Assembly: GCA_031213475.1 (NCBI GenBank)
Contig: JARUPZ010000010.1
Span: forward strand, 7,294,776 to 7,358,775
Source of the DNA: Nereocystis luetkeana
Lineage: Eukaryota; Sar; Phaeophyceae; Laminariales; Laminariaceae
Reading direction: 5' to 3'
Length of the DNA: 64,000 bases
A program made the position numbers and the translations under genes. The notes beneath the pieces are model-generated. The model was not told the origin of the DNA. It saw only the letters and a program-made list of their open reading frames with translations, and did not search any database. Positions 191 through 63,269 of this stretch are shown here, piece by piece. Positions within the stretch are counted from its first letter, which is position 1; each line of letters opens with the position of its first letter.

Positions 191-893
191 AGACCGTAAT
201 TTACATAAATTTGAGAACCCGGTGGCCCCAGTTGCCAGATTTTGTCCCAAAATCAGACTTCTTGGGCCGTCAGATTTCAAACCGAAAAATGGCATGGTCG
301 CTAAATTCAACCACGACAGAAGCAGCAGCAGAACGATCGATGAGTTGGATGATGACACAGCAGTATAGCGACGTTGCTTCGCGCACGACACACGGTCGGC
401 GTACGATGCGTCCCGCCGTGACCAGACACTACAGTCGGCTGGCGCGGGCTCGGGCGTAACGACCGAGAGAAGCGCACTCGACGCCCACCTCTGCGTGGAT
501 ACGTCCTTGTAGACTACAGTAGCAGTCAGTCCCATTGTGAAATACTGGCACAAAATACCAAGATAGGTTGACTGTAATTATATAGCATATGAGGGGTTTC
601 AATGAAATGACTCAGGCTTGGCCCATCATATCAGTGAGTGTACCGAACATTGACTCTTGCGCACTCGGCACGTCTCTTAGCCGCCAGACCAAAGGCAGTC
701 AGCGTGGGCTCGGACGCTTAGGTTCTACGAGCAGTGCAGCACACCCAGCGCATCTCTTCGTGGCGCCAGACCACGACAACAACAACAGCAGTTGGTCTCG
801 GGGTTTGCTCGAACGTGTGCACGCACAATAAACCGATTTCATCGCATACCTGGTATGAAGAATGTTTTGATTTGCGAACTGCATCAGCTGAAA

Positions 894-960
894 ATGCGAT
901 CGGGTCAAAATCTGAAGCTCCAAAATTGAACCGCATATTATTATAGGAAACAGCCTTACG
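894..960. repeat. Fragment related to the hairpin at 21-190
   Basis: It repeats the central part of the 21-190 hairpin (AATCTGAAGCTC, then AACCGCATA, then GGAAACAGCCT). An extra 8 bases, TTATTATA, sit between CCGCATA and GGAAACAG, exactly where the first copy has none. Confidence 0.6.
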
Positions 961-1289
961 AATTGTGGGCACGGGCCGGCTTTTAACGATGAGCTAAATG
1001 TGATATGTGCAACGCACAACGCAACGTACAATGGCTGTACCACTGTATCATACCGGGATGGAGTATCATCGACCAATCAACCAATATCAACCAAACCCAG
1101 GTTGACATGGGGTCGAGTTGCCTCGACGAAGAAAGCGATGCACCTGCTGGTATTGTATCATACAACCAGGTTCAGCAGGCCTTGCGCTTCTCGAGGCACA
1201 ATATAATATGCATTTCGTCCTAGGCCAGCGAGATGCTACTTGGTGGACAACAAAGCCCTGTATCTGCGGAAACTTCAGGCCCCACTCAC

Positions 1290-1898
1290 TTGTCGGTGGG
1301 TACACCGGTGCAAAGCTCCGTCCCGCAGCTGAAAGCTCCGCGATGAAGCCTTGCGGATAGAGAAAAGACGGAAAAGCATGCAGCAGTTTTACACCAGCGT
1401 CGCCACAATGTGAAGTCGGTGTGACCTATCAGCACGGCATGAATCAGATGCGAAGCCATGCAACAACAAAAGCATGCCACGATCAAACCGGTGACGCACG
1501 TAAGGTGCGGTCGTGAAGCAACATGATTTGCGAGGTACTCTCCCCTGGGTTGGTTCGCTGACGGTTGGTTCTTTCGCCGTATGGGTGTGTTTTGTTTGTA
1601 TATAGAAGCAGGTAAACGCGTACCAGGTAGATCGTAGACTATCGTCTATACCTGGTATACGAGTACCAGTACATATTCGTACCGCATGTCCGACACTTGT
1701 TGGGATACGCGCTCGAAGGGTACTGGTGTTCGGCATAAAACGAGGCAGCAACACATCCATATTGAGGGTGTAGACAGCGCACGCGTGTCAAACTTACCAG
1801 CAGTAGGCATCGACCCCAACAGTCAGGCCCCGGTATTGGCTGATGTGGATCGGATAAGTCACGCTCTTGAGGGCGCCCAGCAATCCTGGGATGCCCAT
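1290..1898 (-). CDS. EXO1: Exonuclease 1 (EXO1/FEN1 family), first two coding exons, gene runs off the window
   Basis: EXO1 is a 5'-3' exonuclease and flap nuclease of mismatch repair and recombination, acting in the nucleus. Two minus-strand exons are visible. Exon 1 is 1898-1798, starting MGIPGLLGAL and ending AYC plus two bases of a Trp codon before donor GTAAGT. Exon 2 is 1349-1290, after acceptor CGCAAG, and reads LHRGAFSCGTELCTGVPTD before donor GTGAGT. Together they give residues 1-53 of the N-terminal nuclease domain. The required Gly2, the first metal-binding Asp (D30 in VGVDAYCW) and the EXO1-type WLHRGA segment that follows are present; FEN1 differs at this point. The next expected exon (RYV..CM, VFDG) is not found between 1 and 1283, so it most likely lies beyond the left edge. 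A decayed gene cannot be excluded, but both exons are intact with good splice sites. Confidence 0.85.
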
Positions 1899-2358
1899 GG
1901 CGTCGGGCTGAGTGCCGTTCTCCAGCCAAGGGGAGGAGACGGATGGAGCAACGAAGCTGACCCCAACTCCTCTATATGCAGGAGTGGAATTACCTTACGA
2001 GAGACAACCCCTACCCCCTGCACGGGTGTAACAGCTGAAGACCGCCGTGCTCGTATTCTTGACTCTTGGCAACAGCAAGTACTCTCGTTACGGTACCTGC
2101 GTCTGGTGTGAATTTGGAAAGTGGTTCGCTTTTAAAATATATTTTCGTATAGACCTGGATGGCATACAGGTTCTGGATTTTAGTTCTTGGTCCTTTTGGT
2201 TCGCCTCGCGCCCACGACTACACACCGCACACGCACGGCGCAGCAGCACCATATCTTCTCTCGGTCTGGCTCTTGCCACTTGTGCCCGCCCCGGCCGCCG
2301 CCTGTTTTTACAGCACTGCTGTTCCATCTCTGCAACCATCAGTTCAGGGGCTCCAAGT
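1899..2358. promoter_or_regulatory. Short intergenic region between divergent EXO1 and dihydroorotase genes, probable shared promoter
   Basis: The two start codons point away from each other and are 460 bp apart, so both promoters and 5' UTRs must fit here unless there are upstream noncoding exons. An AT-rich TTTTAAAATATATTTT stretch at about 2130-2146 is the only TATA-like sequence noticed. The dihydroorotase frame stays open upstream of its ATG to about 2047 but has no other in-frame ATG. Confidence 0.5.
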
Positions 2359-5300
2359 ATGTCAAGTAGGGTAACAATCACTATCCCTTCGGCAGACGAC
2401 TTCCATCATCACTTTCGCGATGGGGAGGTGTTGAAGGACACGGTGCAACACGCGTGCAGGATGTTTCGACGGGCGGTGAGATAGAGAACATTTGCGGCTG
2501 CTGTCATCGCCTTGGCTCGCTAAGTCGCTGACCCCTGTCTTTGCTCTAACATCTTCAGACGGGGGGCGCTATATGTCGGTATGCCGTCCGCATCTGAGCT
2601 TTATTACTGCTGCACGAATCGGTTGTTGCAGATCGCGATGCCCAACCTCAAGCCACCCGTGACGACAACAGACGAGGCACTGGACTACCGCCAAGTGAGT
2701 ACGCATGCAGTCGCCCCTGTAGTGTGTACACGCGCATCTCCGGTGCTCGTCATTGTAGGTTAGAGATACAATGTTACGAGTGCGAGTCTAGGAGTACTGT
2801 CTTCGTTTTACGAGGCGCCTGGTACATACATACGCCACCTGGTATAATACACCGTACCTCGTATCGTACCTGTGGTACATATATCTGGTACGCACCAGTA
2901 CGTACGCACGAGTATCGCACAGCAGTTATCCCGCTGTCTTCATATTATTATAGTAGTATTCATACTATTAATACTGTACGTACAGCAAGCAGCATGTTTG
3001 CCTCAAGAATCCCACGTCTGATCAAACGGACCAACTCTGTGCCTGGTGGACGAGCACGTTTCGCCACTTTGGCAAACGGGCTGACAAAATCTTACGTGCC
3101 CTCAACTGATTTTTCTGTTCGCTCTCCAGCGCATCCTCGCATGCGTGCCAGACGGGGTGGACTTCACTCCTTTGATGACGCTATACATGACGGACAAGTC
3201 CACGTGAGCACGAATACCAACCTACCGGTAGCAGGCCTGATTCGTTCGGACAAAGTGCTCTGGAAAATAAGCTTTTAGGACCGCAATCCCGTGTTGGGAA
3301 CAAGCCACTCAAATTCCAAGTACTTTACACAAATTCCAAGTACTTTGTCCCCAAAACGGGACTGCAGTCCTCTCTCGGCCGCCCACAGCCGTCGTGTGTT
3401 GTCAGCGTAATTCAGACGTTCTACTTAAAGACGGAGTTTTTGTTGTGTTGAAAAAATTGAAACCGTTGGGTTTTTTGTAGAAGGACCAATAAACGGCTAC
3501 TTCGTGACGTATGTCATACAGGAACAGATCTGCCACAAATCGAAGCAAAATAGACAGGCCCTGTAGCTTCCCGATAGTAGGCACAACCAGATTTCTGCGA
3601 GCACGACGCCATCGTAGCCCCTCAAGGGATTTACAAGACCACATGACTGTATGTGGTCGTCATTGAAGTTCTTGGGCTTGTCTCTCCTCTGTGTGTCGGA
3701 AAATCTCGCCTCGTGGATTTTCGCTCGTGTGTGTGCTGGTCGCCCAGTGAGCGAACGCTAGATAAGTGTTTTGGACCTGGTTGCTGATGGGCAACAGCGC
3801 AACGTGTTTGCGGGAGTCGCACGAACTTTGGTGTGGGTGGAGAACCCGATCCTCGAAGTATGGGTCCCATTTTCCTTCCTGGAAAGAGCTTCCCAATAGC
3901 ACCGGGGGGCGGGGATGACAACGATGCGAGTATTCTCCAGGCCGAACGGTGTGCCCGCCACTGCTGACGTACAGGGCACACCTCGAAATACCCATTTCAA
4001 ACAATCTCCCGGGGTTACAGGGCACTACGTGCAGATCTGAAGGAATGCGAGGTGATCCCGACGTATGACCCAATTTGACTGCCAAAGAGTCATTTCGGCC
4101 TGAATAGTCAGATTTTCAATGCGCCGTAACTCCGTTCGCATAATGACTACGAGTGTCGCCCGAGACCTAAAGATGCCTGATGTGCTTGGCTTGCCGAAAA
4201 GTCTACGAACGTCGATGAACTCAAAACTCCTGCGAGCAAAGTTTTTATTACCGCGTACCAGGTACGTTCTTTTTTTTTCAAGCGTTTTTTTGCTTATTTT
4301 GCCGCTGTACACACCCGAAGGTGCTAATTTCAGCGAATACAGGTATTCGACGACTTTAGGTCATTTTTTTTTGGCGATTCACACGAATCGCAACACATAA
4401 AGAGAGTAAAAAGAGCAATTGTTCATGAGGGATCTAACTACCCCCTCAAGAAAAATCATGCTAAAATAGCTGTATACGGCAATCATGTGGCTGCCTCTAC
4501 GTACGGAACCTTTAACAGCTTAAACAGAGGGTGACATAGGAAGCACCAAGCTCGTCGTCGACATGCTTATGATACCTGGTATGTATTATATGTGGCTGTA
4601 TAATTACCTCAGGGCGCTATGCTCGTAGTCTGGACTGCAGTCTTTAATCTGTGTGTACCAACAAGCTGTCATTGCTTAGTGTTTTGTATCTTAAAGTAGA
4701 AAGTGCCGCTTTCACCCGCCTTTACCGCTTGATGCGGGTGTCTCACAGGCATGTAGGCATGGAATACACACAGCACAGGAAAGTGCAGGACAACATTGAA
4801 TTCCGCTTCGGCCCCACTGATTCTTGGAGGCGGAGACAAGAACTGACAAACAAGGTTTCCGGTCACAATGAGCTCCCGGTCAGCAGTCCCGAAGACCCCC
4901 CCTCCTTGCACGACGCACGACATTTTGCACGTATGTTTGTCCATGACAGGCCGGAAGAGATACAGAAGGCCAAAGCTAGTGGCCACGTTTATGCCGTTAA
5001 GCTCTACCCGGCAGGTGAGACTGGCGCGTTGTCTCTCTGCCCGCTGTTTAGCAGTTGAGTGTTTGGACTCACTCGCAGATGACGGCTCTAACCCCGACTA
5101 CTCTGTGTGCGTTGGATCGCGCAGTTGAAGCGTACCTATTCCATTGTTGGTTCGAACGCCCAATGCAGCAAGACATTAAAGCGCAACACAATACCACCAC
5201 CGTGCTCACGTATTTTGTTGTCACGGTGGTTTTACAGGTTTCTTCCTTTCCACTCCCCTCACTGAGGTTGATTGATGCTACTGTAGTTGCATATATTTTC

Positions 5301-8074: not shown

Positions 8075-9835
8075 TACGACTTATTGATAGTTATACGTAG
8101 AGAAAACGTGTGTACGCCCTGTTGTGGAAGCGCTGCTGCGAACGAACCGACAGGACCGCCGATGCGACGCGTAGACCATAGATCGCGACGATTTCACGAC
8201 TTTGCGCTGCTATAAGGCCTTGCTCTCGCTCTGTTTTGGCGAAGACGTATTGCATACCCCACAGTGACACCGGTATTTGATTGTCGTATCCCTGATGCAT
8301 ACGGTAGATTACGAACTGGAGGTAAACGCACCCCTCGCCTCTGACGGAGTGTTGTTTATTGATTGCGATATACCTTTCGGTTCTACCTCGATGCCTCTTT
8401 TCGGAGCATCAACAGCATATCATAGCAGGCAGTAGACACCCGCCTTGCGTCTTTTTTCGGCACGATACCCAACGATTGTGCAAAAAATAAGTTGCGTAGG
8501 CGAATTTAACCAAGTACGCCGTGTGACATGTTTCAGTCACTTCACTCTACGTCAACTGCGGAGCAAGGTTTACAAACGGATGCTTCTTCAGCCGCGTGCC
8601 CGCAGCAAAGGCACCTTAGGGTACAATTACGTCCTACAACAGCTATCGTTCTAGAACTCGAAACACACGTACATGTTCTCCACTTCTCCAGGCTCAGGCC
8701 TGGAGACTCGCGATCGGAAAATATTCTATGGCTCCCGTTCTGCAGTCTAAAACCGGCATATTTCACAACAGTCTAGAGTTGGTACATAGACACACCGTCA
8801 AAACGTAGCATCAAAACTACCAGGTACCAACTATTAATTAATACTGAACTTATAATTCGTACGGAAACTTTCACCAGGGAGATCGGAGCATTTTTTGGTG
8901 GTGCCGTAAAAAGAGATGTTCGACAATTCAGTAAGTGAATACTCCGGCCACTGGGCATGGATTCACAAACGGGTTCTTCCTTGGTCATCTGTGGGATGTC
9001 CTGCTGTAGCTGTCGAGGCTCGTGCCAGGTAGCACGGCATGGCGGGGCTGAGGGTATGTCGCGCTGGAAAGCCAAGTAGAGACGAGCGGGCCTGACGAAG
9101 TCTCTTGTTTTGCGCCACCATCTGGCCGCGTCCCGTAGATTCTTCGTCCAGGCCCTTCCTTTTGGTCTCTCGTAGGTGCCTACGAAGCGCCATCTCAGCC
9201 GTTGCCTGATCTGTGGAATTTGCTGGTATTCATTATCTTGCTCCCTCGTAAAAAAACTTCGAACCCAGACCCTGTACGGGTATGAAACGAGTATGAACTA
9301 CCCCGGCTGAATTGAAAAACTCTCGCAAACTTAATAAATACCAGGTAGTCCTGGCAGCAGAGAATATCATTTTGAGTTCCCCGCGAGAAACAGCCGCTGA
9401 AATGGTGTAAAAACAGATAATTCAAGCATTTAAGGTACTGAGACGTTCCCATTGTCATCGGTCTCCCAGTGTTAATATTTCCCAGAATTTGTTCTGGGAT
9501 TTCTACGACCGAAACTTTAAACTTGTCTGCCTGGCGCCACCTCTGCTTACCCCCCTGCCTACCGAACCTTTGACTTTTTCTCGCTGGAATCGAATAGAAA
9601 GCTTTCCGTAAGAAACTCCGCGATCCAGATTCGGGAATATGAAATCCATCTTTTTCCGACGAGAAGAGTCCAGAAAAAAATAATGAGAAATTCGATATTA
9701 AAAAAAAACAATTCGGGAGCTGCCACACTCATAATTTTCAAGTGCCCCAAATGTCCTGGGGAATAAGAAACTCGCTGCTACCTCCCGTCTTGACGAGCTC
9801 CCTCCGGTCAGCGGGGTCGATGGCAGCGCGCGCGT
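8075..9835. other. 3' flank of dihydroorotase and unannotated DNA
   Basis: No recognisable exon, RNA gene or transposon was found. The longest frame (minus strand, 9195-9728, 177 codons) matches no family I know and has no supporting splice pattern. TACCWGGTA words occur at 8818 and 9339. Confidence 0.4.
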
Positions 9836-12390: not shown

Positions 12391-12599
12391 CACTATTGGG
12401 GCAGATATTTCCAGCTCGTTCGCCACCGGTTTTCTGGTGTTCTCATGATAGATACCTGGTATATAACCATAGATGCAACTGTATTATGCAACTGCACTTT
12501 AGATGCAACAACAGTAGAGGAGACTGGAGACTACAGATCTACTCGTACCTGTTTTTTTTTTTCTGGGTGTTCCGTTGGATTTTGCGGAGATTGATGAGT

Positions 12600-17206: not shown

Positions 17207-17302
17207 TACTACGGGGTACAGACAAACACGTATATAAATCGCTATTTTTACTGACAGCAGTATTTGGTCCTACAGTATATACTATGCCCCCCCGTAATAG
17301 TT
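17207..17302 (+). mobile_element. TTACGGGGG-family MITE, diverged
   Basis: TACGGGGTACAG on the left and ATTTGGTCCTA, then CCCCCCGTAATA on the right match the complete copy at 42308. Extra GCAG and ACAGTATATA segments distinguish it from the other copies. It abuts the poly(T) of the next SINE-B. Confidence 0.6.
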
Positions 17303-17789: not shown

Positions 17790-18030
17790 GGATACGTGTG
17801 TGTGTGGTCTTCACACTAAACCGTTCCTTCTATCCGTCGACATCCAGCACAACTTGTGTCCGTGTCGATCCTTCAATCCTAAAGAGCTACCAGGTACAAG
17901 TTACGATGTGTTCATAAAACTTCGCCACAAAGACACTACATTGTTATGCAGTACCTGGTATAGCAGAGTAAACAACGCAGTTGCAGTGCCATACCATCAT
18001 GAGTGTCGTGAACGAGTAGTCGCGAGGATC
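17790..18030 (-). repeat. Solo copy of the LINE-C downstream repeat (repeat E)
   Basis: The reverse complement matches the ends of the blocks at 22040-22290, 26050-26290 and 46150-46400 (GTGCTGGATGTCGACGG and the following AGAA.GAACGGTTTA). It carries two TACCWGGTA words (17888 and 17952) where other copies have shorter sequence. Confidence 0.7.
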
Positions 18031-18395
18031 GTTTTCCAATCTGAAACAGCTTATCCAGCCCCGTAATACGTCTGGCATGGTTGAGTTTTTTCACTACGGG
18101 TATTATTGATGCGGTCGAAAAAGAGGTACCACCCCCCCCACGTCGCCACCGCAGACATGGATGTGTGAGTCTGCCGAAACCTTGGCCGCATTCGTATATG
18201 CATGGATAGTAGAGAATGACGAAGAAGATGACGGAATGTGCGAGAAGTAAGTGCTGTGATGCTGGACAGGGAAACATCGAAGTATTTTGTATATTTTACA
18301 AGAAGTTGCACAGGGATGTAAGTTGTCACCCATCAGCCTATTAGTCAAGATATATATATATACCAGGTATATAATATATATTAATACCAGGTATA

Positions 18396-22309: not shown

Positions 22310-23060
22310 TCAATGTAATAGATGGAAACAACGAAATGAGCGCCCAACTGTTGGGGGTGTCTCTATTAGGAGTAGGAACGGTGCTCCGTCTCGAAAGGGG
22401 TTCGTGGTCAATGGGCCAATGGTCAAACAACTAAGGCAAGCAACAAATGAGTACGCCCCCCCCCCCCCCCCCCGCGGCTCTTAACAGCACCTAACTTGGC
22501 AAGTCTGCTCGACCGTTGCACCGGTCGTTCCTCCCTTTCTTCCACACCTCGTTCCATTCTGCTGTGTTACCGCCTGGCCTACATCCCCCAGCATCCCCTT
22601 TCTGTCGCCATCTTTCCCAACCCGATCATCACCTCCCGGACGCTGTAAGATCTAACCCCCTAATTCCACCACCACGCCCAACACTCCATCCTGCTCGTCC
22701 CCGTCCTGGGTTTTCCGTCTTCTTTCCCTCCCTCCGTCACCACCTGGCCCCCTTACGTAGTCTCATCCCGTCCTTTAATGACTACTGCTGTATATGCTGC
22801 CATAGCTATAGGGAGTTTATTTTCTTCAGGCCCCGTCATCCAGTGGCCACAGAGCTGTGTGTGGTTGATAAGGTTAATACGTGATACCAAATATAACAAT
22901 ATACAGGTGAAACAATAATGGTTGTCAGGACCGAACAGGTCGAAATAATAAAACGATTCTATTTCGTACCAGGTACGCATTTTGGAAATAAATACCAGGT
23001 ACCAGGGGTACGGTTGGTGCGAAACAAAAAAAAAGTGTCGTGCCCCTCAGAAGGAGATCG
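22310..23060. other. No gene recognised
   Basis: It contains the repeat shared with 10866-10940 and a long C run at about 22457-22473. The C/T-rich frame at 22516-22884 has no family similarity. Confidence 0.4.
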
Positions 23061-23160: not shown

Positions 23161-23289
23161 AAACAACACAAACAACACAACTATTAATACAATACCAGGT
23201 AGTAAACACAACACATATACTTCGAAAAACAAACGAACTATTCCTAGGAGACGAACAGGCTAACCGAAGCACAACTAAAAATGAAACAA

Positions 23290-24174: not shown

Positions 24175-24430
24175 GTCATCTCTATAGGTGGTACATCAGT
24201 ACATGTCGGTACATACATACTGTACGAGTATACCTGGCGAGATATGCCCGAGGGTGTAATACCAAATAAATGGTATAATCATAAGATCCAAATGGTAGTC
24301 AGTACTGACTGTAGTATAATCATACCTGGTAGGTATTTACCAGCTGGGATTTACCCCGCCGATTACACCCGCTCTATTGTAGAATATCACAGTCATAGAC
24401 TGTGTTACATTTGGTTTGCTGGACCTTTCA

Positions 24431-37114: not shown

Positions 37115-40100
37115 ATGGGCTCAGGGTCATCGCATCAGGCGAAATCGCTGAGCCAAGATCTCAGTGGGAAGCACTTTGTCGTGACAGGCGCCAACACCGG
37201 GATAGGGTATGTCACCGCCCGTGAGCTGGCGAAGATGGGGGCCAAGGTGACGTTAGCGTGCAGGAACGACGACAGGGGCCAGCAGGCGGCGGACAAGCTC
37301 CGCGGGGAGGCGCTGGCAAAGCCCGTTGAGGAGGTGAACACATTCTCCCTCTGCACTCCCGGCGACCCTCCTTGGCTATATGATACTTCCAGTACACTAC
37401 GATAGATACTCAGAGAATACGTTGTATGTATAATACAAGGCATATACCACAAAAAAAATAAAAAGAAATCACACGCCGAGGGCGTCCGGAACAGTTTTTT
37501 TTCGACACGCCACGTCAAAAAAGGTCAGAATGGAAAACAAACTGGAGCGCTGTGATCACACGGGGGGGTCTCTAAAATCAAGTGGTCCAAAATTGGAAAA
37601 ATTAGAAAACAAGCTTGTTTTCTGCTAAATCGTGCTACGATCACAGCGCTCCGGTTTGTTTTCCATCCTGACCTTTTTTTAAGTGGGGTGTCGAGAAGTG
37701 ACTGTTCTGGGCGTCCCTGGCCACGAAGGGCAAATATTTGGCTCTGCACAACAAGTTGGATGGACCTTGTAGGAGATGCAGCAGATGGAGACTCTGCTGT
37801 TATCGCGAGACGGCAAACGTGCTCGCTTCGAATGCGACGCTGTTGCGTTTGGTTTTCTATTTTTTCCCCCTTTTGTCTTTATTCTTGCGACATGAAAGAA
37901 ATCCTGCCTGGCTTGGTGGGTGGCGAGCCTGTTTTCCTTGGTGCTTTTTCTTGTTTTACTTTTGACATGTGCCAACCATAGACATCCATCCACGTATGTT
38001 CCCTCTCTTCTCTTTTTCTCGGCTAGATGGCACTTGTGTTTTTCATGTGTTTGAGTTCTGTTTTTTTCGGTCTGTGTCTCGCGCGAGTTCGCAAGGTACG
38101 CTCGGCGTGGCGTGCTGTCCTATTGCCGATAGGAGGCAACTGTATTCAGAGCACACAGTCTACAGATTGAGGCCCGCGGTCAATCAACAATAGGACAATT
38201 CACACACTAACTGGTGACATACTCTTCATCTACTAGTACTATACCTGGGACTAGACAAACGTCGCGCCCCTACAAGTAGCTCTGCTAAGAACAAGGGCAC
38301 CATAAGAACACGAGACAAGCTGAGCTTCTCGAAAAGATATAAGAAATTCGGATAGGTGGGTTGATATGAAATTCAGAAGAATGAATGGGTGCCCTGTGTT
38401 GTCTCCGGCGTCACCTGAGTTTGTCCTGTTTCCGAAGTCTTTTCGGGCGTTTGTGTTGACAGGCAAGGTCTGCTGGTTGACAGTCCCGGCGGTGTGACCG
38501 AATGTCTAAATTTCAGTACCGAAAAACTGGTTCGAGCCATTTATAGGTACAATTGAAGCCAAAGTTAGGTGAGACGGAAGTTGAATACCTGGTAGCTGAT
38601 AGAAGGTGTACCTTGGCCTTTTGAGTCATTCGTAGGTACGATGGAGCGCAGACCAAGTATCAAATATCAGGCGGCGCCCGGAGCTTTTTCAGGGCGCAAT
38701 GCCAAGTGTACCTATGAATGGCCGAAATGGCGTAGGTATACCTATTTCTGGCTAATACCATTTTTTGTGTCTCATATTGTGCACCCCAAATTTCGACCAA
38801 TTCCGACCACTGGAGCACCTCTCAGTCGAGGTGTAGACCTCTGTTGAGAACCTGCGGGGGATCAATCTCAAGAGAAACACAAGCTGCTGTGATGCACCTC
38901 GAACAAGTCACCGTCGCTCTCCGGTGAGCACGAACCAGCCCAAGTTTTAAACGCAGCGTGTGAAGGTAGCGATGTTTTTTTTCGGTTCCGATAAAAAATC
39001 TAGAGATTAGAGTGACCGGAAACCCGGAGACCAGTGGACGTTTGGGTGCCAGCGTGTCCTTAAAGCCACTTTATCAAAGGATGCTTACGGGATTAATTCT
39101 AGAGAAATATAAGTTGTTTTCATGGCGGGAATGGTTGAGCGCCCTCAAGACCGTAAGCCCCAAGCAGCAAATATGTCCGAATACATCACTTTCACCCGTG
39201 GACAAACAGCGCCAAGGCAAAATGCCTCGTAGGCAGACAACCTAGACAGCAAAAACCGGGGACTCGATAGAAAAAAAAACACTCCATATTATTGTGTTTC
39301 ATGGAAACATGTTATCAGCCGGTGACGACGTTAACTCATGAATTTATCCCTAACTAGCAAGTACGGTAGATCCATCCTAGTAGTAGAGAGACTTATCACA
39401 GTCAGTACTATTTAAATACAGATGCATACCGCGTTAGAAAAGCAACAACACTTACTCGCAAACACAGCAAGCAAAAATTATCGAGCTAAGGGCCGTTCCT
39501 AACGAACTGAAAAAAAACACGATTCGTGACTTTTGGCATGCCAAACGATCACGATGCCTGGCATTATTTCAGTTCTAACGAAAAAAACAAGAAAAACGTC
39601 ACGTTTCGTGATATTTTCAAATTGTAAAACTTCCGATATTTCAAACCCAACGTTTTTTGCGGGTGGAGCCAATTCTCGCTAGTGGGGCACGGCCAGGCCA
39701 AGCCGAGCCGACCGCGCCTGGCCCGGCCCGTGGTATATTCGAATCGCGGGCCGAAGCCTGACCCAGCCTGCGAGATTCCTATTTCACCGACCGTCGGCCA
39801 AGCCCGGTTCGCGACATTCCATCTCGCAGGGCGTCTCTGTCCGGCCTGGCCTGTGACATCTTCAGGTCATTTTCGCGTTTCCCTTCAAGCTGTGGCTCCT
39901 CCTCCTCGAAAATTCGAGGCCACAACCTGCTCGTTAGCCCGCGCCCAGCGGTGTCTTTGGGTAGCCGCCCGTTGCCCACAAGCGCCGTGCGAAGCAGTGT
40001 CTGCCATGCCCCTATACCGACCTTCGGATACCGTTGGTGCGCGTAGGTTGCGTAGTGCCTTTATCAGGCGCGATTGGAGACACAATAAATGTCACGAATC

Positions 40101-41141: not shown

Positions 41142-43160
41142 GAGGCCAGGGCTGTTGCGGCGCGTATCGCGTCGCGGAAAGCGCTGTCTGCACCTTGCGT
41201 ACTTTAGGTGTGACTTCGACAATATTTAAATTGGTTGATACTAAGCGTTGCAAGCTGCGCGAGACGTCGACCAGGCGTGCTCTACATCTATCGATTCCTC
41301 GTGAAGGATATAGGCCGATGGCACCCTACATCCTACCCAGGGGTACAATACTGGTCCTATTGATGTGGCGATTGATCACTGAAATATGTTTCCGTTTGAA
41401 TCGCTAGCCGCGGCTTCCTGCGAGTAGCGACAATTCGCTTCCATGGTGGTTTCGCCGGTTTCCCGTCAGCAGGGCGAGCGAGTCAGGTGTGCGTTTGACT
41501 TCTAGCGAGCATGTGTAGCGCTGCATCTTCTACAGTACATTGTGCCAGGTATTACTTTTGCTTTTTTGTGCGCTTTTCTATATGCTCAGGCCTGGGCAGT
41601 GGTCGGGCATCAGTTTTAGCTGCAGGCAATGGGAAACATGAAACCGGCGGGGACCACTCCGACTGCACATTGTTATCGTGGGTCCTCAGAACGCGCCCAC
41701 CACTGCTCGTAGTTTGTTCGACCATTCACAATAATTGTAGGTGCGCTGTGATTTATGTTCGGAAGCCCAATTGGGTTGGTAGGTATTGATCTGTACCAGT
41801 GTTAATTCATGTATATGGGATATGACGGTGTTCTACGTTTTCAGTCTATCCAGATAGGGTTTCTGCTTAGGGCGTGGCAGGTGGGATAACGGGGGCCATG
41901 ACTTGCCGCACGCGGGGAAACAAATCTTTCTTTCTTGCGTATTCGAGCAGAAAACTTGTAGCTCCTCTGGCCATTTCTCTTGTGTCTTTCCCCTCTCATT
42001 TACTTCTAGAAGCATCAGCTATGGCAGAATAACGGCGGGTGTGAGGCGATGCGATGATTCAGATGCATGTACGAACCACAGGCCGTATTGATTTACAATC
42101 GCCCCACGTATATAGCAGGCTATGCGTGAACTCGGCAAGCTTTGGCGTGACGCAGTGAGGCATGTTAATGGATCGTGCATACCAGCAGTACGTCGAGTAC
42201 ATCGCCATGCTACACGGCGGAAAATATAATCGATACCTGTAAAAATGTATTCCTTGTAGAACAACAAGATCAGGCCTACTCGGCACAGGGTGATCTACCA
42301 GGTACATATTACGGGGGGCCATAGTTAAAAGGACCTATGGTACACGTAAAAAAACTATACGTTGAATCATTTTTACTCACAATATTTGGTCCTATTAACT
42401 ATGGTCCCCCGTAATAACATAAAAACGATACACACGCAGCCTTGTAACATGGTGTCCAATCTGAGAATCGAAGTCGGTTTTCCACCAACAATGTTCGCCC
42501 CTGAAATCAATACGTAGCGATCGATTATTGAAAATATCAAAAAAAACGCCGATCTCGATATTTTGGGCGATCTTCGAAATTGGGGCGATCTCGATTATCA
42601 CGATCCAGATTCCCGGTCCTCGCGCATTACGGTCGATTTCTACTGAAGTATATAATTATGTGATGAGCAGCAATACCGTGAATCCAAACATATTCCCGTG
42701 CTTCTCCAAGTAGTTGGTAATGTAATGGGTAATTGTTTTCGACTGCGCGTGGTCTGTTGTCTGATGTGTTGGTCAGGTGTGCGCGCTGGTGTGAGAAAAA
42801 TCGACGTTTTCCTGTGCTATGGTAAGGTGGTATCTGGGCTGGAAGAGGAAGAGATCGAAAGAATCGCGATTGGTGATCTTTCGATCTCGATTAAGGATCG
42901 AGAATCCGGAAAAATAAAAAGCGATGTCGATCTCTCCGGAAAATCGGGGAAATCGCGATTTATTTTAGAATTGGAAATTCGATCTCGATCTCCAACACTT
43001 GTTTTCCACACATAAGTATACATACACGTATGTTACGTTCAGATTAAAAAAAAACAGTAAATAGTACGAGGACGCATGTACTTCGTATGTGCTTGTGCCA
43101 GGTATTTTCGGCTCTCCGCCTGGTCCCAGGTTCTCCCAACCGGCTATTTTTATTTTTTAT
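41142..43160. other. 3' flank of SDR1 and intergenic DNA, no gene recognised
   Basis: The first 80 bp resemble the 3' flank of SDR2 (GCTGTTGC.GCGCGT, GCGCTGTCTG). Beyond that no conserved exon was found. 42520-43010 is rich in GATCTCGAT and CGCGATTT words. A complete TTACGGGGG MITE is listed separately. Confidence 0.4.
42308..42415. mobile_element. TTACGGGGG-family MITE, complete copy (108 bp)
   Basis: Ends TTACGGGGGGCCATAGTTAA and TTAACTATGGTCCCCCGTAA are inverted repeats, bordered by TA on both sides, consistent with a Tc1/mariner-like TA duplication. Related copies are at 14021, 17207 and 54405, with an end fragment at about 14703. Confidence 0.75.
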
Positions 43161-44074: not shown

Positions 44075-44719
44075 GCCTCGTACCTGGTACTCCTGAAGGC
44101 CCATGTCATACACCCTACAGCCTACAGCAGATCACCTCGACCTTCACCATGCGGGCTTGCAAACTGAGCAGTGCGGTCGTTATGCGCTGCTGTTCTCTCG
44201 ACGAGATTTCACGACACCTCGCCAACCGCAAAAACCAGAGATCTTTCCAACGGCAAAACTCCCAAAATCCTTAAAATCTGAACACGAAAAGGGCACCTTC
44301 CCCTGCCCCCTCCCTCTCTACCGTCTGCCTTTTATCTCGTAGATGGAGGAGGCACTTTCGTAGGGAATTGTAGACTAGAAATGTTGCGTAACAAACGCTA
44401 CACGAATTTAAGGCTTATAAACTCGATTTCCACCACATTTTCCCTCACGAATAAATGTAAAACCTGACTTGTTTGGGGTCGATCGTAACGAGGGATATTT
44501 TCCAGTTTTCTTCAGTATTTTCCCGAAATTTCAGTATTTTCCCGCAATTATCGGGAAAAAAAGCCGAAAAACTCCGACCCCGAAAAATGACGTCTTGAAG
44601 TTTTTAGGGTTTTTCAGGAAATTTAGGTACAAGGCCGTGGAGGATCGGGCAGCCCCACCGATGAGACTCTGTTGAGTATCCAAGTTGTACCTCCGACTTT
44701 TCCGTACTGGACTCAGTTA
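44075..44719. other. No gene recognised
   Basis: No conserved exon. TAACAAACGCTACACG at about 44390 recurs near 47145, so part is dispersed repeat. TTTTCCCG words repeat at 44500-44560. Confidence 0.4.
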
Positions 44720-47108: not shown

Positions 47109-47134
47109 TACCAGGTACCAGGTATTACCTGGTA
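47109..47134. repeat. Cluster of three TACCWGGTA words
   Basis: Words at 47109, 47116 (sharing TA with the first) and 47126 lie directly between the SINE-B end and the TAACAAACG repeat. Confidence 0.8.
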
Positions 47135-47139: not shown

Positions 47140-48015
47140 TAACAAACGCTACACGGATTTATGCTAAAAATACTCTCGATTCCCCGCACCTGTGGCACCT
47201 GGCACCTTCCGTTTTCCGTCACGACAATTTTGTCAAGCAACAACAAACATCAATCAGCTGACATTATTACTTTACTTTGCCACCAGCTCTCTACTCGCAC
47301 TCACCTTGGATTCCCGATCCGCCGCTAAACTACCACCTATTATGTGAGTCGCGAATTTGTAAACTTGTTCCAGGGCGTACTCGTACTACTCTAACAGCAG
47401 GTGGTTGGCGTAGAGCAATGGGGATGACTGGCGTAGAGCTCTGCACCTGGCACCGATTCCTGCAGCAAATGATCCAGCGCTCGGTCGTCTCTCCCACGTT
47501 TGCCGCTCCAAAGCTCGAAGGCTATCGCACTGGTTCGAATCCCTTTGTCCGTACTGCTGCGTTTCGTACCTGGTAGTGCGCACAGCAGAACCTACATATT
47601 GATACTGCTGCATGCAGCCCATGTTTGATGCTGGGCGCATCCGGGTATGTGCTTGCGTAGTCGAACTGCTGTGGCTATATGGCCCATGTATAGATGCTGG
47701 GCGCATCCGGGTATGTGCTTGCGAGTATAGTCGAACTGGCTATCTATATGGCCCATATATAGCCAGTTCGACTATTAATATATACATGGCCCGGGTTGGG
47801 TACATACTGGCGCCAGCGCCAGTACCAGGTCAGCAGCCAGTAGACTGGGTCCAAACAGTACACTGGTGCCGCGGCGAAGCCGCTTGGTCGCGGCGCCCCC
47901 CCCGGCTGGTGAGGGGGCTCCGCCGGAGGCGCCCCGCCGGAGACGTGTTTTACGCGATTTGGCTCTACTATTAATAGAACATATCGAATGATTTTGGGCC
48001 CCTTCGATGCTGCCG
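47140..48015. other. Tandem repeat, hairpin and GC-rich patch; no gene
   Basis: Two units of about 70 bp starting GATGCTGGGCGCATCCGGGT lie at 47628 and 47694. At 47728-47773 a perfect 16-bp stem (TAGTCGAACTGGCTAT / ATAGCCAGTTCGACTA) forms. 47865-47950 is a GC-rich hairpin patch (GGGGCTCCGCCGGAGGCGCC). Confidence 0.6.
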
Positions 48016-51130: not shown

Positions 51131-54100
51131 CCCGATATTAATAATGTTGATGCTGCTGTGTTTGTAGATCCGGTCGCGGGGGTCCCGGGCCGTGGTCGCC
51201 AGATGACAATATCCGTGGGAACCGGCACGACAAGGCATACGTTTATACCCAACAGCCAACCTCTGGCAGCCCAGTTGAGTGCGGTATGGGTCCCACTTCA
51301 ACGCGGTACCGCACTCAACAGGGACATAACATACATTACCTATGAGGAAACATTTAGAGCAGCACTTTGAATTCGTACAATAATGTCACTCAGAGCCCAC
51401 TGTTCAAGTGCACTCAGCTGCAAAACACGCATGCATGCAATCGTCCTCTCTCACACAGGCAAGCCCGAATTTATAGCACGATTGATTCTACAGGTACAAT
51501 GGGTAAACCAGGTGTGTGTATGGTAGGGTTGTGGGCGCTGGCACCGCCGTATGTACTGGCAGTAGTAGTAATGTACTGATTGAGGCGGCCAGTACATTCG
51601 CCAGTATTTTTTATCACACGTACGTGCAAGAAACACGCCATTATATACTGTTGTAGCACGGAAACCCACCAAATAAATGCGTTTCGGGAGGAGGGAGCAA
51701 GATCGTCACATCATCGCCATATACATCCGTGTACGACGTTGCATGCATTTTTCTTGATTGTTTTGTTGATTTTTTCGGTGGTGATGACCGCAATCACCCC
51801 AGGCCATTGGATGCAGCTTCGCTTTGGGTTGATTATGATGGAAAGTCCAAGTTTTTTTGTTTGCCCCCGACGGGCCTTAGGCGCCCCCCCCCCACCAGCC
51901 CCACCAGCCGGGGGGGGGGGGCGAGTGGCGTAGTGAATCTCGACTATTAGTATACTGCTGCAGCCCAATATACTGACTGATTTGACCACAACAGTACAAT
52001 CGCTAATTAACGAGTCAGTCAGTGCTCAGCCCTAATGTATATGGAATTACAGTGATACGAGGATGACCCACAAACAGTGCTCTTACGACACCCAGTTAGC
52101 TGATGCTCTGTACCGGGTACGTGAATATGTGGAGGCGTGCTTGCCCCACTTTAGTGCGGTGGCCGCACAAAAGCGGGACCGGCCCCATATAAGAGCGGTA
52201 GCCGCACTCACGTCGGATAACGCTGTCACAAGAGGTTTTCGCCTCACTTAAAGTGGTAGCCCGCACTCAAAAGTACCGTACGTACTTAAGTGGGACCCCC
52301 ACTGTATTTACTGTACCTGGTAGGTGATAAGATCGTAGAAAATATTTCTGGTCTTCTGGTGGTACGAGGTACATACGATGACATCAACATACCGGTATCT
52401 ATACATCTGCACCGCTAGTGTGCATATAACTTACTGCCGAAGTTCAACAGCAGTCCAACATATTTTCAAGACCTGTACATACTACAGCAGTAGTAGCCTA
52501 CATACATGTCGTACGTGTAGTGTTAATAAAGCGACCCGTGCACTTCTTGCAATTGCTTGCACCGGAGCACTTGGATATATAACACGTACCGGTATATATC
52601 TACGTGATGTGGCCTATCATAACACAGCAGCGGCTTGGCCACGTCGAAATATAATTATTAATGTTACAGCAGTATCAGGAGGAGAAATCGCGGTACTGCC
52701 GTAACGCGGTAGCATGGAGTAGTGCTAACTGCAAACGTACGAACGTACGTGCAGATGCCTTAACGTTATGTGTCTGCTCGATCTCGTCGGCTCTGATACC
52801 GCAACAATGTGTTGCGCCGTGATCAGTGCTTGTATGTACTACCGATATTTCCGTCTAACACGGAAGAAGGCACACTCCGGTGATCACGTCTTGACGTTTA
52901 GAAATAGTACCACCGGGCGTGCGGTTGTGGGGGAGTGTAATATCTAATGCATCCCTGGTAGTAACCAATACGCACGGGAGTCCCGCAGCTAGGGGGTGTG
53001 ATTAAGGTGCAAATAACGACCGTGCCCAGTACTCATTCTCTGGGCTCATTTAGCAAGGAAACAGAAGCTAGGGTTTCTCCGATAGGACCGAGCGAGGCGA
53101 GTTTCCCGAGGTATTTACTTTCAAGTCTTACATGTGTACAGCAGTAGTAGTCTGGGATCCGGCAAAAAGCCGGTACCCACAATGGATGACCCTCTCTGTC
53201 CCCCGGGGAGAGGTGTATCTCATGTCTCATGTCATAACCAAGGGAGCGCTTGCGACCCGAGATCGACGACTCGACCAGTAGAGCTTACGACTTCGAAAAT
53301 GGCTGGTACACACTGTGTACGAGACAAAGGGACCAATGCTAACTCTTACCAGTACTGCTGTACTTAACCTCGAGTCCACGAGGGCTCAAAGAGCTGAAAC
53401 CTTCTCGCGATAAAATGTAAGGCGCGTTCCTTAATGGGGAGGGAGGGGGGGGGGTGTTACTCCTTTGTTGCTTGCGTTAGTCATGTGACCTTTGACCACA
53501 AAGCACCTTGACTTCCAACCTTTGTTCTGGCTGCCGATCCGGATGCGGACCTACAATCGGAATCTATCACAAAGTTCGTGTGACACCTCATGGTACATGT
53601 ACCAGGTATTTAGCAGCGTAGGGCAGCGCCCACGTCACCGCCGAGCCAGTCAGTCAGTGATTGCAGCTATACTACTGCTGGAGGTTGGAGGAGGCGCACA
53701 TGGGATAATGTCTCGCTGGCGGAAGCGTCCACGCCCGTGCGTCCCGCTGCGGTGGGAACCATATGCTCCTTGGTGATGCAACTGGGTATATATATATACC
53801 ACGAGACATGTTGCACAACGAACAAAGAAAAGTGCCACACACGCGAAAAAAGTCCGCACAGCAGTGCCGGCAAACCGGCACAGAGCGGCAAGGGTAGGCT
53901 AGCACGAACTACGAAGGCTTCGGGGTACTAGCTATAGGCCCAGTCGCTGGAGTGAGTAACAGGGGGCCTTCGTGAAGATCCACCTCGCCCACGAGCTCAC
54001 AAGACCGCCCTCATTAAGCAATAAATAGAAGTCAGGAACATCGTTGTTTGTGCCTGAAGTTCCTGTCGAAGCACGACAACCGCAGGCAGCAGTATATACT

Positions 54101-54400
54101 ACTGCTGTACCTGGTACTCGTAGGTAAAATGACTGCACACCTTGTTCCAGCTGGTCCTTTTGAAACTGGGGGGGGGGGAGAGCCCGGATCTGAGTTAAGA
54201 TCAGGGAGGGAGCAGGAGAAAGAAGGACGAAGACAATGGATGATATGGGAATACCTGTCAAATGTTTGATTCGGCTCCGTAGCATTGCCGTTCAGAGGTG
54301 TCGGAGTGGGTTTTGAGGACCCGCATCTTCGACTCACATCTAGTTCGTAGAATCGGGGTTTCCATGAAAACCCCATGTGTCTGCTTTTATGGCTCAAAAG
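51131..54400. other. Intergenic DNA without recognised genes; clusters of short palindromes
   Basis: No conserved exon on either strand. GAGTGCGGTA / TACCGCACTC pairs and GTGCGGTGGCCGCAC-type palindromes lie at 51274-51325 and 52150-52300. GTACTGGCAG / CGCCAGTAC pairs lie at 51556-51620. A C/G-run hairpin is at 51870-51925. Degenerate SINE-B body fragments are at about 53372-53446 and 54178-54250. Confidence 0.45.
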
Positions 54401-54404
54401 AGTG

Positions 54405-54490: not shown

Positions 54491-54982
54491 GCGATGGTAC
54501 TGCTTGGAATGATATGGAATGGCCGGTGATTATCTGGGGACAGGTGTTGTGATCGTATTGCAGCACTGGGAGGCGTGACTTAGATGGGAAACCGGGGGTG
54601 TTCCGCAAAGACGAGGCCTTCCGTCAGTCTTTCGTCGTGCTCTAAACGGAATAAAACTGCTCTTCTCCTATTTCTAAGCAATCGACACACGTGAGTAACA
54701 ACGAATACTTGCTCAATAAGCAAACCTGGTAAGGGATACTCTGCGTCCCGACCTGATCTTACCACACTTGTGTCTGATTGTCTCACAATTGCCTACATAG
54801 GTCATTCAGGCCTGGCAGTCGAGGTACGTATCCATTGTCAAATGTTTGATTCCGGGGGGTCTCCATTACGTACGTCCGTACATCACACCATACTTGACGT
54901 ATGTAACGACCCTAACCCGGCTTCAATGCGCCCTCTTTTGTCCAGCAGCTATTCATCGCTACCGAAGACGCAAGTCACCACC

Positions 54983-60900: not shown

Positions 60901-63269
60901 CGGCCCAAGGACAGAGCGTTTTGTGTTCCGCAAAGAAAATGTGTTTCGTACCAGGTACATATTGGACATATATGTGACATTCGAGTTGCTATTGCATTCA
61001 GCATTCATGGTTGATATGTAATTTTTTGCTTTAACCAGCCTGTACTCTGGTACTTAGCCGCCGCCGACGACGATGTAAATCCTTGCTTACATCCCAACTC
61101 AATAAGGGCCGTTCTTAGGGCCGGTCCTAACGAGAAAGAAAAAAGGATTAAAAAAAGGAATAGCAGCACTAAAAGAGCACGTGAATTCTATTGGTCAAAT
61201 TGAAACAACACTGAAGTAGAGATTCCGATACCTCCGTTTTCACATTTCGTTTTTTTAAGCCCCATTTTTACGAAATTGGTGCGAAAGAAACGAAATACGG
61301 GTGATACCCAGGGGCGAAGAGAAACATGGAAGGAGCTCGAAGCGTTGGGAAAGTTCCGATAAAGGTTCTACGACCGGTTGGCAAGTGCACGATGGCCGAG
61401 GTAGTGCATGTGGCTGCCACGCGGCTTGTCTGCCGACGGCGCGAGCATATATGGGTAGGGAATCACCAAGGGGTGCCCTCGCAAGAAACAGGGGGATCAG
61501 GAAGTGGCTGTGGCGGTACATTTTCGAGATGCGTTCCTCTCAACTTTCAAACGTCTGCCATCGAACAGCGATGGCCGATACACAAAATCTACAGCACTCC
61601 GGAGGGGGCGGGTTGGATCACGAGGACAGTGATGGCCGATACACAAAATCTAGAGCACTCCGGAGGGAGAGGGTTGGACCACGAGGACCTCCTGCTGTAG
61701 AAGGTGCCTCGCGTGTGCGAGTTGTGTCATCCACCGTCGCTGTCGAGCGCTATCGCCGAGAACTACGTGCTGTGGTGGTTGAGTCAATGTGAAAATTGCA
61801 CCGCGTATAAGTTTGACTCGGCTTCTTCTTTTTGTTTCGTTTTTTTTTCTTCGTTTTTTTTCTCGTTAGAACTCAACCTGCTGTTTTTTACGAAAAACGA
61901 AAATCTGTTCGGTTATTTCGTTTTTTAGCTTCGTTTTTTTTCCTCTCGGTAGGACTGGCCCTTAGCGAACAAAAAAACACACGGTTCGTGAGGTTTTCAT
62001 CAAGAATCATGACATTTTTTGTCGTCAATCAAGGATTCGTGACTTTTTGTCGAGTCTACCGGTGTCTTTGGCTGTCCCGCCGAGTAAAACGCGTATATTC
62101 GGCCTAAAAACCCAGTTCTGAGAGTCCAGAAGCAGAACATGACACCACGCGATATTAAGACCCACCGCATTTTTCACGTTTCCGTGAAGTTTCCGCGAAA
62201 CGAGAAGAAGAGTGAAAAATTCAGTTAAAAACGACCCTTGGTATCCATATTCATGCCTAAACGCTCCTCGGATTTCTTTCCAGCGTGTGTAAACGTGCTC
62301 GTAAGCACAGCAAGAAATTTGACACGTGTTAACAGCAGCACTTCGTATCATAGACACACCGTTTTATCAACACTATCCAGGTATTGACACTGGCGACATG
62401 CGTATAGCCGACAGCATCACTTTTTTATGCTCATCTTGCTGTTTCGTCTTTTATCATGGATACTGTATTTCTATGGGCAGGGCGTGGACCTGCTAGAAGG
62501 GCTGGAGGGCGTCGACGTGGAGGTGCAGATCTTGGACCTCGGATCATTGCAGTCGGTGGTAGCCTTCGCCGAGAGGTTCAAGGCGTCCGGGCGCAAAGCC
62601 GACGTTCTCATCAACAACGCCGGGATCATGGCCATCCCGGAGAGGCGTGAAACCGTCGACGGCCTCGAGATGCAGATCGGGGTGAATCACTTCGGCGGGC
62701 ACCTCCTGACTAGGTTGATGGAGCCCATGATAACCGACGGCGGCCGAATCGTGTTCCTGTCGTCTTTGGGGCACGACCAGCCACCCGGTTTGGCCAAGAC
62801 GACCGTGGATTGGGACAACATCAACTTCGAAAAGCCTGGCAGCTACGACAGCTGGATGGCGTACGGGCGGTCCAAGCTGGCGAACATCCTAGACGCCAAG
62901 GAGTTCGCGAAGCGCCTGGCCGTCCGCGGAATCAACACCTACGCCGTTCATCCAGGCATAGTCGATACCGATCTCATGCGCAACATGACGGACGACAGCT
63001 GGACGTCGCGCATGTCGAGGTGGGCCGCCCCCCTCATGAAGTACGTCTTGTCGACCCCGCTGACGGGAGCTTTGACGTCCCTCCGGTGCGCCGTGGACCC
63101 GGCCCTGGCCGCCCCGGAGTGTTCGGGCAAGTACTGGGCCGCCATGAAGGAGACAATGCCGTCATCGATAGCGTCGGACCCCGCCAACCCGCCTCGCATG
63201 TGGACCTACACGGAAGACGTTCTTGAAGTGAAGCTCGGGAAAAAGGTGGACACGGTGCTTGCTTCGTAA
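54983..63269 (+). CDS. Short-chain dehydrogenase/reductase, copy 2, two exons
   Basis: Exons 54983-55201 and 62481-63269 encode 335 aa, the same length and intron position as copy 1; the intron is 7279 bp (donor GTGAGG, acceptor GGGCAG). All active-site motifs match: TGANTGIG, NNAG, N142, S168, YGRSK, HPG. Exon 1 differs from copy 1 by two amino acids, and the first 270 bp of exon 2 by only about two bases. Residues about 169-197 and 234-268 differ strongly; the second block follows HPG and is where SDRs form the substrate-binding lid. The last 60 residues are again nearly identical. The 85 bp before the ATG also resemble copy 1, so the duplication includes the proximal promoter but not its 42-bp repeats. 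Intact and probably functional with altered specificity (inference). Confidence 0.92.
57510..57600 (-). mobile_element. SINE family B, 3' fragment
   Basis: GCTCATCCCATTTATTTTCT, CTCTCTCCTTCCAACTCGTA and CAGATCCGGGGTCACATA match the 3' end of SINE-B; the remainder is absent. Confidence 0.7.
57785..58205. repeat. Array of TTCGGTA / TACCGAA words
   Basis: At least a dozen GTTCGGTA or TACCGAA words in both orientations fill 420 bp, with spacing of about 37 bp in the clearest part (GTTCGGTACGGCC at 57991 and 58028). CCGGTA-type variants fill the gaps. It lies in the spacer of the inverted-repeat element. Confidence 0.8.
58325..58511. mobile_element. MITE with 38-bp terminal inverted repeats
   Basis: GTGCCGTTTCTCATGCCGAG at the left is inverted as CTCGGCATAAGAAACGGCAC at the right, continuing inward through GGGGTGTA / TACACCCC. 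The element is about 187 bp. No target duplication is clear. Confidence 0.7.
61106..62075. mobile_element. Relic of the 39.5-kb-type Harbinger element, split by a second element
   Basis: TAAGGGCCGTTC at 61103-61114 continues after the inner element as GCGAACAAAAAAACACACGG and TTCGTGA. This is the same order as the left end of the element in SDR1. Its right end is not found. Its place near exon 2 in both introns suggests it predates the gene duplication. Confidence 0.6.
61118..61961. mobile_element. Second PIF/Harbinger-like element, nested
   Basis: TTA at 61115-61117 and 61962-61964 flanks 844 bp with inverted ends GGGCCGGTCCTAACGAG and CTCGGTAGGACTGGCCC. Inside, a unit of about 60 bp (GATGGCCGATACACAAAATC) is tandemly duplicated at 61570 and 61630. 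A frame at 61301-61792 spans these and resembles no transposase. Confidence 0.75.

Follow-up and report, generated by a model that had tools for sequence, protein, structure and literature searches.

Introduction

Why does one palindromic 9-mer recur throughout a stretch of algal DNA in which chance would hardly place it once? This question is raised by a 64,000-nucleotide stretch of the Nereocystis luetkeana genome (contig C10:7294776-7358775 of the 465-Mb assembly GCA_031213475.1; hereafter, the window), in which a previous sequence-only reading had noticed the word TACCWGGTA (W, A or T) and interpreted it as the footprint of an excised TA-targeting element with CCAGG/CCTGG ends. In this work, we present counts of the word in the window and the whole genome, comparisons of paralogous copies, and a search for the donor element. 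We find that TACCWGGTA results from insertion of 7 bp at TA dinucleotides and most probably represents the excision footprint of a TA-targeting cut-and-paste DNA transposon with CCAGG (or CCTGG) ends.

In the footprints of Sleeping Beauty, overhangs pair around an A/T centre. According to passages of the literature, the nicks made by Sleeping Beauty and mariner transposases lie three nucleotides within the element, the footprints corresponding to the 3' overhangs (PMC7827188), and TACAGTA and TACTGTA occur in excerpts of two other papers (PMC4378557, PMC3432063). According to the respective passages, the pogo element Passer leaves footprints of 0-4 bp (PMC9976928), and excision sites of rice mariner and Harbinger elements are mostly irregular, with 8 of 94 being "perfect" and the rest displaying deletions or fillers (PMC4423477). 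In the brown alga Ectocarpus, 17 Mariner-Tc1 families are described in a passage of a transposon survey, most of their copies being non-autonomous (PMC12477816); the main text of this survey has 0 occurrences of the term "footprint".

Results

Abundance of TACCWGGTA in the window and in the genome

Exact matching recovered 31 copies of TACCWGGTA in the window, all of them at the positions reported previously and none beyond these. The enrichment is real and very large: 100 dinucleotide shuffles of the window yielded a mean of 0.41 copies and a maximum of 2, and Markov models predicted 0.35 (order-1) and 0.56 (order-2); the random expectation given in the sequence-only reading was about 0.5. 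Among palindromes of half-length 4 in the window, even ATAT/TATA runs alone rank above it, and among all 9-mers of the window it is the seventh, behind simple repeats. The genome-wide count that had been proposed as a check lies far above expectation, with 182,395 copies versus 1,744 of a control word (the word reversed), an excess of about 100-fold; the density of the word is 0.39 per kb, or about one copy per 2.5 kb. At 0.48 per kb, the window is somewhat rich in the word and not special; the density was 0.29 per kb (58 copies in 200 kb) in 20 sampled loci of 10 kb each, taken at fixed offsets on large contigs. Copies also tend to lie close together, as 14 of 70 inter-word gaps in a 264-kb sample were shorter than 100 bp, with 2.3 expected.

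None of the 31 words touches the 7,394 bp taken as open reading frames (ORFs) of long interspersed nuclear elements (LINEs) or dehydrogenases (3.6 expected); this coding set consists of six spans, five of which were searched, Pfam supporting three and giving no hit for two. Four window words lie inside ORFs of at least 180 aa with no recognised gene. The earlier statement that none of the listed copies lies in a recognised exon or LINE coding region cannot be extended, as regards LINEs, to the whole genome, a LINE coding region being interrupted by TACCWGGTA at L033:5422. A literature search for TACCAGGTA, TACCTGGTA or TACCWGGTA as a whole word retrieved no paper, a weak negative given that most subscription papers were outside its scope.

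Insertion of 7 bp at TA sites

A strict paralog comparison was carried out on 336 kb from 35 sequences, in which 107 words were entered together with 1,031 other TA-N5-TA words as controls. The satellite locus L008 was left out of this comparison, of a looser version of it, and of the test of TACC...GGTA spans described below, and the duplicates L027, L029 and L030 were left out of the strict, span and inverted-pair analyses. A cleanly alignable paralog was available for 12 words, and a bare-site paralog was found in 12 of 12, versus 10 of 187 controls (Fisher p 1.1e-13). In all testable words TA had thus become TA-CCWGG-TA, i.e., an insertion at TA accompanied by TA duplication, as is characteristic of Tc1/mariner elements. 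The looser test gave a bare site for 14 of 17 words versus 43 of 204 controls, or 74 of 242 controls when L008 was kept in. Alternation of the word with a bare TA, which the sequence-only reading had proposed to look for at orthologous sites, is therefore observed at paralogous ones.

The cleanest case is the LINE copy L033:5422, where GGTGATACCTGGTAGTACAC stands versus GGTGATAGTACAC in L016; Pfam identifies endonuclease and reverse transcriptase domains (Exo_endo_phos and RVT_1) in this repeat family. Another clear case is provided by L018:6298, a copy of a 103-bp miniature inverted-repeat transposable element (MITE), which reads GGTTAAATATA-TA-GGTTTTTATG in bare form versus GGTTAAATATA-TACCAGGTA-GATTTTATG. 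The words L018:6298 and L022:2269 occupy different TAs of this MITE family, and L016:831 and L032:1241 resemble copies of one repeat.

Two further analyses lead to the same insertion. When unselected alignment gaps were considered, the word accounted for 6 of 30 seven-base gaps, and for 0-2 at each other length from 3 to 21. Similarly, among 4,137 TACC...GGTA spans of 8-700 bp in the 336 kb, 28 had a bare-TA paralog, and 13 of these were nine bases long, all 13 being the word. Of the ten such spans over 16 bp, five lie in tandem or nested words, and those inspected singly corresponded to chance, diverged-repeat or other-element matches. At L007:8734-8749 and L013:3899-3912, TAs for which a sister copy is bare carry inserts of irregular form (TACCTGCGTCTAGGTA and TACCCTGCCTGGTA, respectively), which may retain more of the donor end sequence.

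Target preference, centre base and length variants

The flanks of the word display a preference that extends to 7 bp out, TANTANR-TA (170 flanks; chi2 28-90 at -1, -3, -4, -6 and -7), with 82 percent T or A and 5 percent G at -7, A at both -6 and -3, T at -4 and a purine at -1. In the tested cases the flanks predate the insertion, and the pattern is a target preference. The variants with one additional base, TACCWGGGTA and TACCCWGGTA, have the same preference (20 flanks, mean score 0.47 versus -1.28 for all TA, z 3.5), which is partial in the flanks of TACSGTA (S, C or G; mean -0.43, z 4.1) and TACWGTA (mean -0.77, z 3.1). Since TACWGTA shares the preference in part only, the CCWGG and CWG scars probably derive from different enzymes.

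Regarding the centre base, the sample contains 89 CCWGG versus 3 CCSGG, and the remnant is palindromic around one mismatched central base, as in Tc1/mariner footprints; the W centre is as expected of two identical 5-nt overhangs paired with a single A.A or T.T mismatch. Length variants are over-represented as words (TACCGGTA, 16 versus 4.9; CCAGGG type, 9 versus 0.8), and in one L032 repeat TACCGGTA occupies the place where the sister copy has TACCAGGTA. Such shorter and longer forms might be products of end joining.

Doubles and decay of the word

Doubles at 7-bp spacing are found 15,917 times in the genome, versus about 72 under independence and 2 for the control; 4,522 are TACCAGGTACCTGGTA, 1,856 are TACCTGGTACCAGGTA (ratio 2.44) and 9,539 are homotypic. 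Under a re-insertion model, the TAs of existing scars receive further insertions, A being favoured f-fold relative to T at -3, and these two types should stand f:1. The value of f given by this ratio, 2.44, compares with an A:T odds ratio of 2.39 at -3 of the outer flanks (confidence interval 1.64-3.48, first sample). The fit of the model to the double types is fair to good, and the doubles would represent re-insertions. Direct re-use of a scar TA by another family was observed at L034, where an element with a DDE_1 transposase has inserted into the TA on the right of an older TACCAGGTA.

Genome-wide, there are 184,988 words that differ from TACCWGGTA by one mismatch, the corresponding control figure being 64,511; each exact copy is thus matched by an excess of 0.67 such forms, and in the sample 39 transitions and 17 transversions were found over expectation. 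Given the abundance of these forms and their transition bias, decay of the word looks neutral, and an excess of this size suggests that the word is not under purifying selection. The decay corresponds to about 7 percent per site if a single burst is assumed, or to steady production over about 21 percent divergence; under a single burst, the original number of scars would be near 350,000. At usual mutation rates, it would be sufficient if events occurred steadily at a few hundredths per genome per generation, or fewer, and consequently a large donor population would not be required.

Search for the donor element

No convincing element of the form TA-CCAGG...CCTGG-TA with a transposase, for which the sequence-only reading had proposed to search, was found in the 264, about 289 or 336 kb examined or beside the transposase genes read. 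Inverted pairs with TACC- or CNG-type ends in the approximately 289 kb yielded no convincing donor, either in all 28 CC[AT] pairs or in the others among the pairs listed. Profile searches for transposases were performed with PF13358 and PF03184 (PF01359 had no match in the controls either and was uninformative), and no convincing TA-CCWGG ends were recognised around the transposase loci L031-L035, L036, L037 and L038, nor within 1.5 kb on each side of L021-L026. A 3.5-kb query for a second haplotype at the window found none, retrieving the LINE family only.

Two candidates were set aside. The exact TA-flanked pair TACCTGGGGTGTATGTAC at window 57019/59812 is not an element end, as its complementarity runs outward (152/160 nt); it lies in a larger inverted repeat at window 56150-60676, whose arms of up to 429 nt are 96-99 percent complementary. 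The second candidate is a transposase gene of the DDE_3 family at L036, with TACCAGG on both sides (875/882 and 4496) and unmatched inner sequences; it is not claimed as the donor. This lone gene (L036:1484-3277, C17:1213184-1214977) has a 597-aa open frame, and no terminal repeats were recognisable within 5 kb. Its motifs VYMDES, LILDNEPYHHG and PIELFW presumably constitute the DDE triad. In a protein search the next best match, on C10, was 48 percent identical and had six stops, and the gene is possibly domesticated.

TA-flanked transposons and a probable second scar

TACWGTA occurs 29 times in the window versus 5.25 by shuffles, which corroborates the earlier remark that TACAGTA and TACTGTA are frequent there. 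In the strict test a bare site was found for 6 of 22 words versus 9 of 141 controls (p 0.007); for the TACAGTA at window 17271..17277, an instance of this second scar type (TA-CWG-TA), there were 6 bare-TA copies and 0 filled ones. TACWGTA thus behaves as a Sleeping Beauty- or pogo-type scar, alternating with a bare TA and having a candidate donor in the DDE_1 element of L034 (L034:3108-5085, contig C7), a 1.98-kb element with an open 542-aa frame, the form TA-CAGTACCGG...CTG-TA and CAGTACCGGCCCGCTAG inverted ends. This CAG-type element, which we take to be pogo-type, would explain the TACWGTA scar. It resembles the sought donor in targeting TA, and differs from the source of the CCWGG scar in its CAG ends and in that TACWGTA flanks share the preference weakly.

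The genome contains 28 DDE_1 matches, as well as DDE_3 loci whose open frames span 437-515 aa; DDE/D transposases of the Tc1/mariner superfamily are therefore present, and any link between them and the CCWGG scar would be hypothetical. A full-length, TA-flanked DDE_3 element of 4.27 kb with a 483-aa ORF and CGGAGGCTC inverted ends was found at L035:16-4283 (C10:3951216-3955483), its DDE_3 score being common to ten genome loci. At L038:1-5027 (contig C2) lies a head-to-head foldback of an element of this type, with arms 100 percent complementary, which is either natural or an assembly artefact. The common 103-bp MITE (TACGGGGGACC...) has CGGGGGACC ends; it is found as TA-CGGGGGACCATAGTTA...-TA at window 42310-42413, with further copies in L001, L004, L007, L009, L010, L012 and L013. 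Both the MITE and the L035 element are TA-flanked and reside in the same genome as the CCWGG scar, from which they differ in their CGG ends. Elements of the CGG type would leave TACSGTA, which numbers 58 versus 41 in the sample and 18 versus 5.6-7.6 in the window, with a bare site for 2 of 28. Another TA-flanked inverted-repeat element, of 190 bp, lies at L007:7755-7944 (ends CCGATTCA...TGAATCGG), and a homologous sequence lacks it.

Positions of the word in the window

The positions that follow are those of exact-match words, to which no strand is assigned, and they are regarded as probable scars. The form TACCTGGTA lies at 847..855, 1649..1657, 4573..4581, 12453..12461, 24323..24331, 38586..38594, 44081..44089, 47567..47575 and 54108..54116. 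It is also found at 17952..17960, where the paralog near 26119 carries the word too; at 29132..29140, 11 bp downstream of the 29121 copy; at 47126..47134, adjoining the double described below; and at 52314..52322, where it overlaps a TACTGTA at 52309.

The form TACCAGGTA lies at 1621..1629, 4256..4264, 8818..8826, 9339..9347, 22967..22975, 23193..23201, 28555..28563, 29121..29129, 42296..42304, 53600..53608 and 60949..60957, as well as at 18361..18369 and 18385..18393, both within AT-rich tracts. The copy at 17888..17896 has bare-TA paralogs at window 22221-22134, 26235-26143 and 46350-46262 (minus strand), and the one at 22993..23001 is followed by a second partial unit (TACCAGGTACCAGGGGTA). 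At 26119..26127 the word lies in a repeat; it is missing from the repeat's other window copies, near 22077 and 46194, where CACGTGG stands instead (TA changed to CA). Finally, the copies at 47109..47117 and 47116..47124 are the first and second units of a double spaced by 7 bp.

Other features of the window and genome

The fragment at window 26813-27604 is 89 percent identical to a LINE with a 1,250-aa open frame encoding endonuclease and reverse transcriptase. Besides the window, 39 matches to it score nearly alike (within the best 40 of 4,960 candidates), and the copies L028-L030 are three 3.8-kb stretches 99.9-100 percent identical; from these near-equal scores and identities, it follows that this LINE family spread very recently. 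Two similar short-chain dehydrogenase genes lie about 22 kb apart (window 40272-41141 and 62388-63269), with 98 percent DNA identity over 300 nt. The EsV-1-7 cysteine-repeat family is large, with 150 matches among the best 150 of 1,714 candidates (best E 2.4e-17) and no match in 14 control genomes; according to a passage of PMC12477816, this domain has expanded within brown algae and is otherwise found mostly in giant viruses, and the size of the family here accordingly suggests a brown-algal genome.

Discussion

The findings described above can be accounted for by a sequence of events of a known kind. An element would insert into a preferred TA, with TANTANR-TA on each side, and duplicate it; the transposase would then cut the element out, with the terminal CCAGG (or CCTGG) staying as 3' overhangs on both flanks. 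These overhangs would pair in antiparallel orientation with one central A.A (or T.T) mismatch, end joining would leave TA-CCWGG-TA, and the new TAs, being good targets, would be hit again and give rise to the 7-bp doubles. We infer that a transposase is the agent and that CCAGG/CCTGG are the ends of its element. The stagger would be of 5 nt, and an identical scar could also arise from one of 3 or 4 nt if the overhangs paired in part and were then filled in. Any present activity of the donor, which would now be at low copy number or extinct, is likewise something we infer. The footprint model advanced in the sequence-only reading is thereby supported by the 7-bp insertion at TA, the flank preference, the doubles and the neutral-looking decay, and the donor that it entails was not found in the DNA examined.

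The footprint reading is the best supported one, and the mechanism that it invokes is of a known kind, although its form is unusual. With Sleeping Beauty and Tc1/mariner elements, as portrayed in passages of PMC7827188, it shares the TA target duplication, a remnant equal to the overhang and repair by end joining; it differs in that natural scars occur at about 0.4 per kb genome-wide and the donor was not found. The rice study of mariner and Harbinger elements likewise inferred excision at genome scale from empty sites, which according to the passage were mostly irregular (PMC4423477), whereas one uniform scar dominates here. The Ectocarpus Mariner-Tc1 families, as presented in part of PMC12477816, are Tc1/mariner transposons of a brown alga. 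A uniform 5-nt remnant at such density is not described in the passages of PMC7827188, PMC9976928 and PMC4423477 considered here.

Other origins of the word have to be weighed against the same observations. One is a nuclease or domesticated transposase that cuts preferred TAs, templated or microhomology repair then writing CCWGG and a second TA with no mobile element involved. The lack of a donor element in the DNA examined would suit it, and so would the lone DDE_3 gene of L036, whose frame is open and around which 5 kb of sequence showed no clear terminal repeats. However, a fixed 5-base insert with an ambiguous centre is the product expected of two identical overhangs with one mismatch, the similar scar TACWGTA has an ordinary candidate donor in L034, and we know of no template-free repair that yields the same 5 bases so often; we consider this origin unlikely. 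Slightly less credible still is a selected functional site, such as a palindromic protein-binding or insulator motif. An exact palindrome with a flank preference, absent from the 7,394 bp taken as coding, could be read in that way, but within repeats that also have word-free copies it is inserted as exactly 7 bp, forms with one mismatch abound throughout the genome and show a transition bias in the sample, as in neutral decay, and 15,917 head-to-tail doubles and about one copy per 2.5 kb would be odd for a binding site.

The two remaining explanations appear very improbable, and about equally so. Programmed removal of TA-bounded germline DNA, comparable to the internal eliminated sequences of ciliates, with the assembly representing the processed genome, would involve TA-bounded excision and would leave donors unseen in the assembled DNA examined; nevertheless, the wide range of decay and the doubles suit events accumulated over evolutionary time, and to our knowledge no programmed elimination of the ciliate type exists in brown algae. 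Base-composition or mutational bias, or spread within one repeat family, could be entertained in a repeat-rich window. It is already contradicted by the shuffles (at most 2 copies, n=100), by the control word being 100 times rarer and by the strict paralog test, in which a clean paralog was found for only 12 of 107 words; moreover, by eye, the flanks of the 31 copies share no common sequence beyond the target preference.

A number of observations weigh against the interpretation of TACCWGGTA as an excision footprint, or against parts of it. All bare-site tests compare paralogs and not orthologs. The 12 words of the strict test form about eight groups and are not all independent, four of them coming from one tandem array in L007, and several bare copies have an altered TA, which has become CA at L016:831 and in a comparison involving L033, TG at L004:4504 and AA at one copy of window 17888. 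The strict test of length variants lent them no support and involved too few cases: of the CCGG form, 2 words had a paralog, bare in 0 cases, and of the 6-base form 8 words were entered, 0 having a paralog. The preference is barely present in TACCGGTA flanks (-0.69, z 1.5), and its score is not unique to the word, being above the mean in TACSGTA and TACWGTA, as indicated above, and high for TAGGWCCTA inside the MITE (2.07, z 8.8) and for TA before ATAT runs (z 14.9). With the satellite locus left out and later loci added, the odds ratio at -3 falls to 1.76 (confidence interval 1.26-2.47). Homotypic doubles number 9,539 versus 6,378 modelled, and about 3,160 need another cause, for which slippage of the 7-bp unit is our guess. 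The remnant, CCWGG, is of five bases, whereas that of Sleeping Beauty and mariner is of three. As for the donor, no convincing TA-CCWGG...CCWGG-TA element was found among inverted TACCWGG pairs in 264 kb, nor any donor among TACC...GGTA spans of up to 700 bp with bare-TA paralogs in 336 kb, and the intact TA elements that were resolved end in CAG or CGG.

The footprint reading can be extended to a fuller history, in which a brown-algal transposon lineage has been excising and re-inserting for a period equivalent to about 7 to 21 percent of neutral divergence. Its stagger would be of 5 nt, which the papers considered here do not describe for Tc1/mariner elements, and its copy number would have stayed very low, its approximately 350,000 scars serving as preferred new targets and footprints being its main product. 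We put this history forward tentatively, as a possibility that falls a little short of an even chance.

Excision scars are usually known from few loci. If the words are footprints, this genome would hold at least 182,395 scars of 7 bp each, about 1.3 Mb, constituting a time-stamped record of a transposon that is barely visible as copies, and which annotation based on copy number would overlook. They would further allow the outcomes of end joining and the choice of targets to be studied on a large body of natural events. Should a donor ending in CCAGG be found, it would reveal a transposase with a longer stagger and would identify a source of 7-bp indels for brown-algal population genetics.

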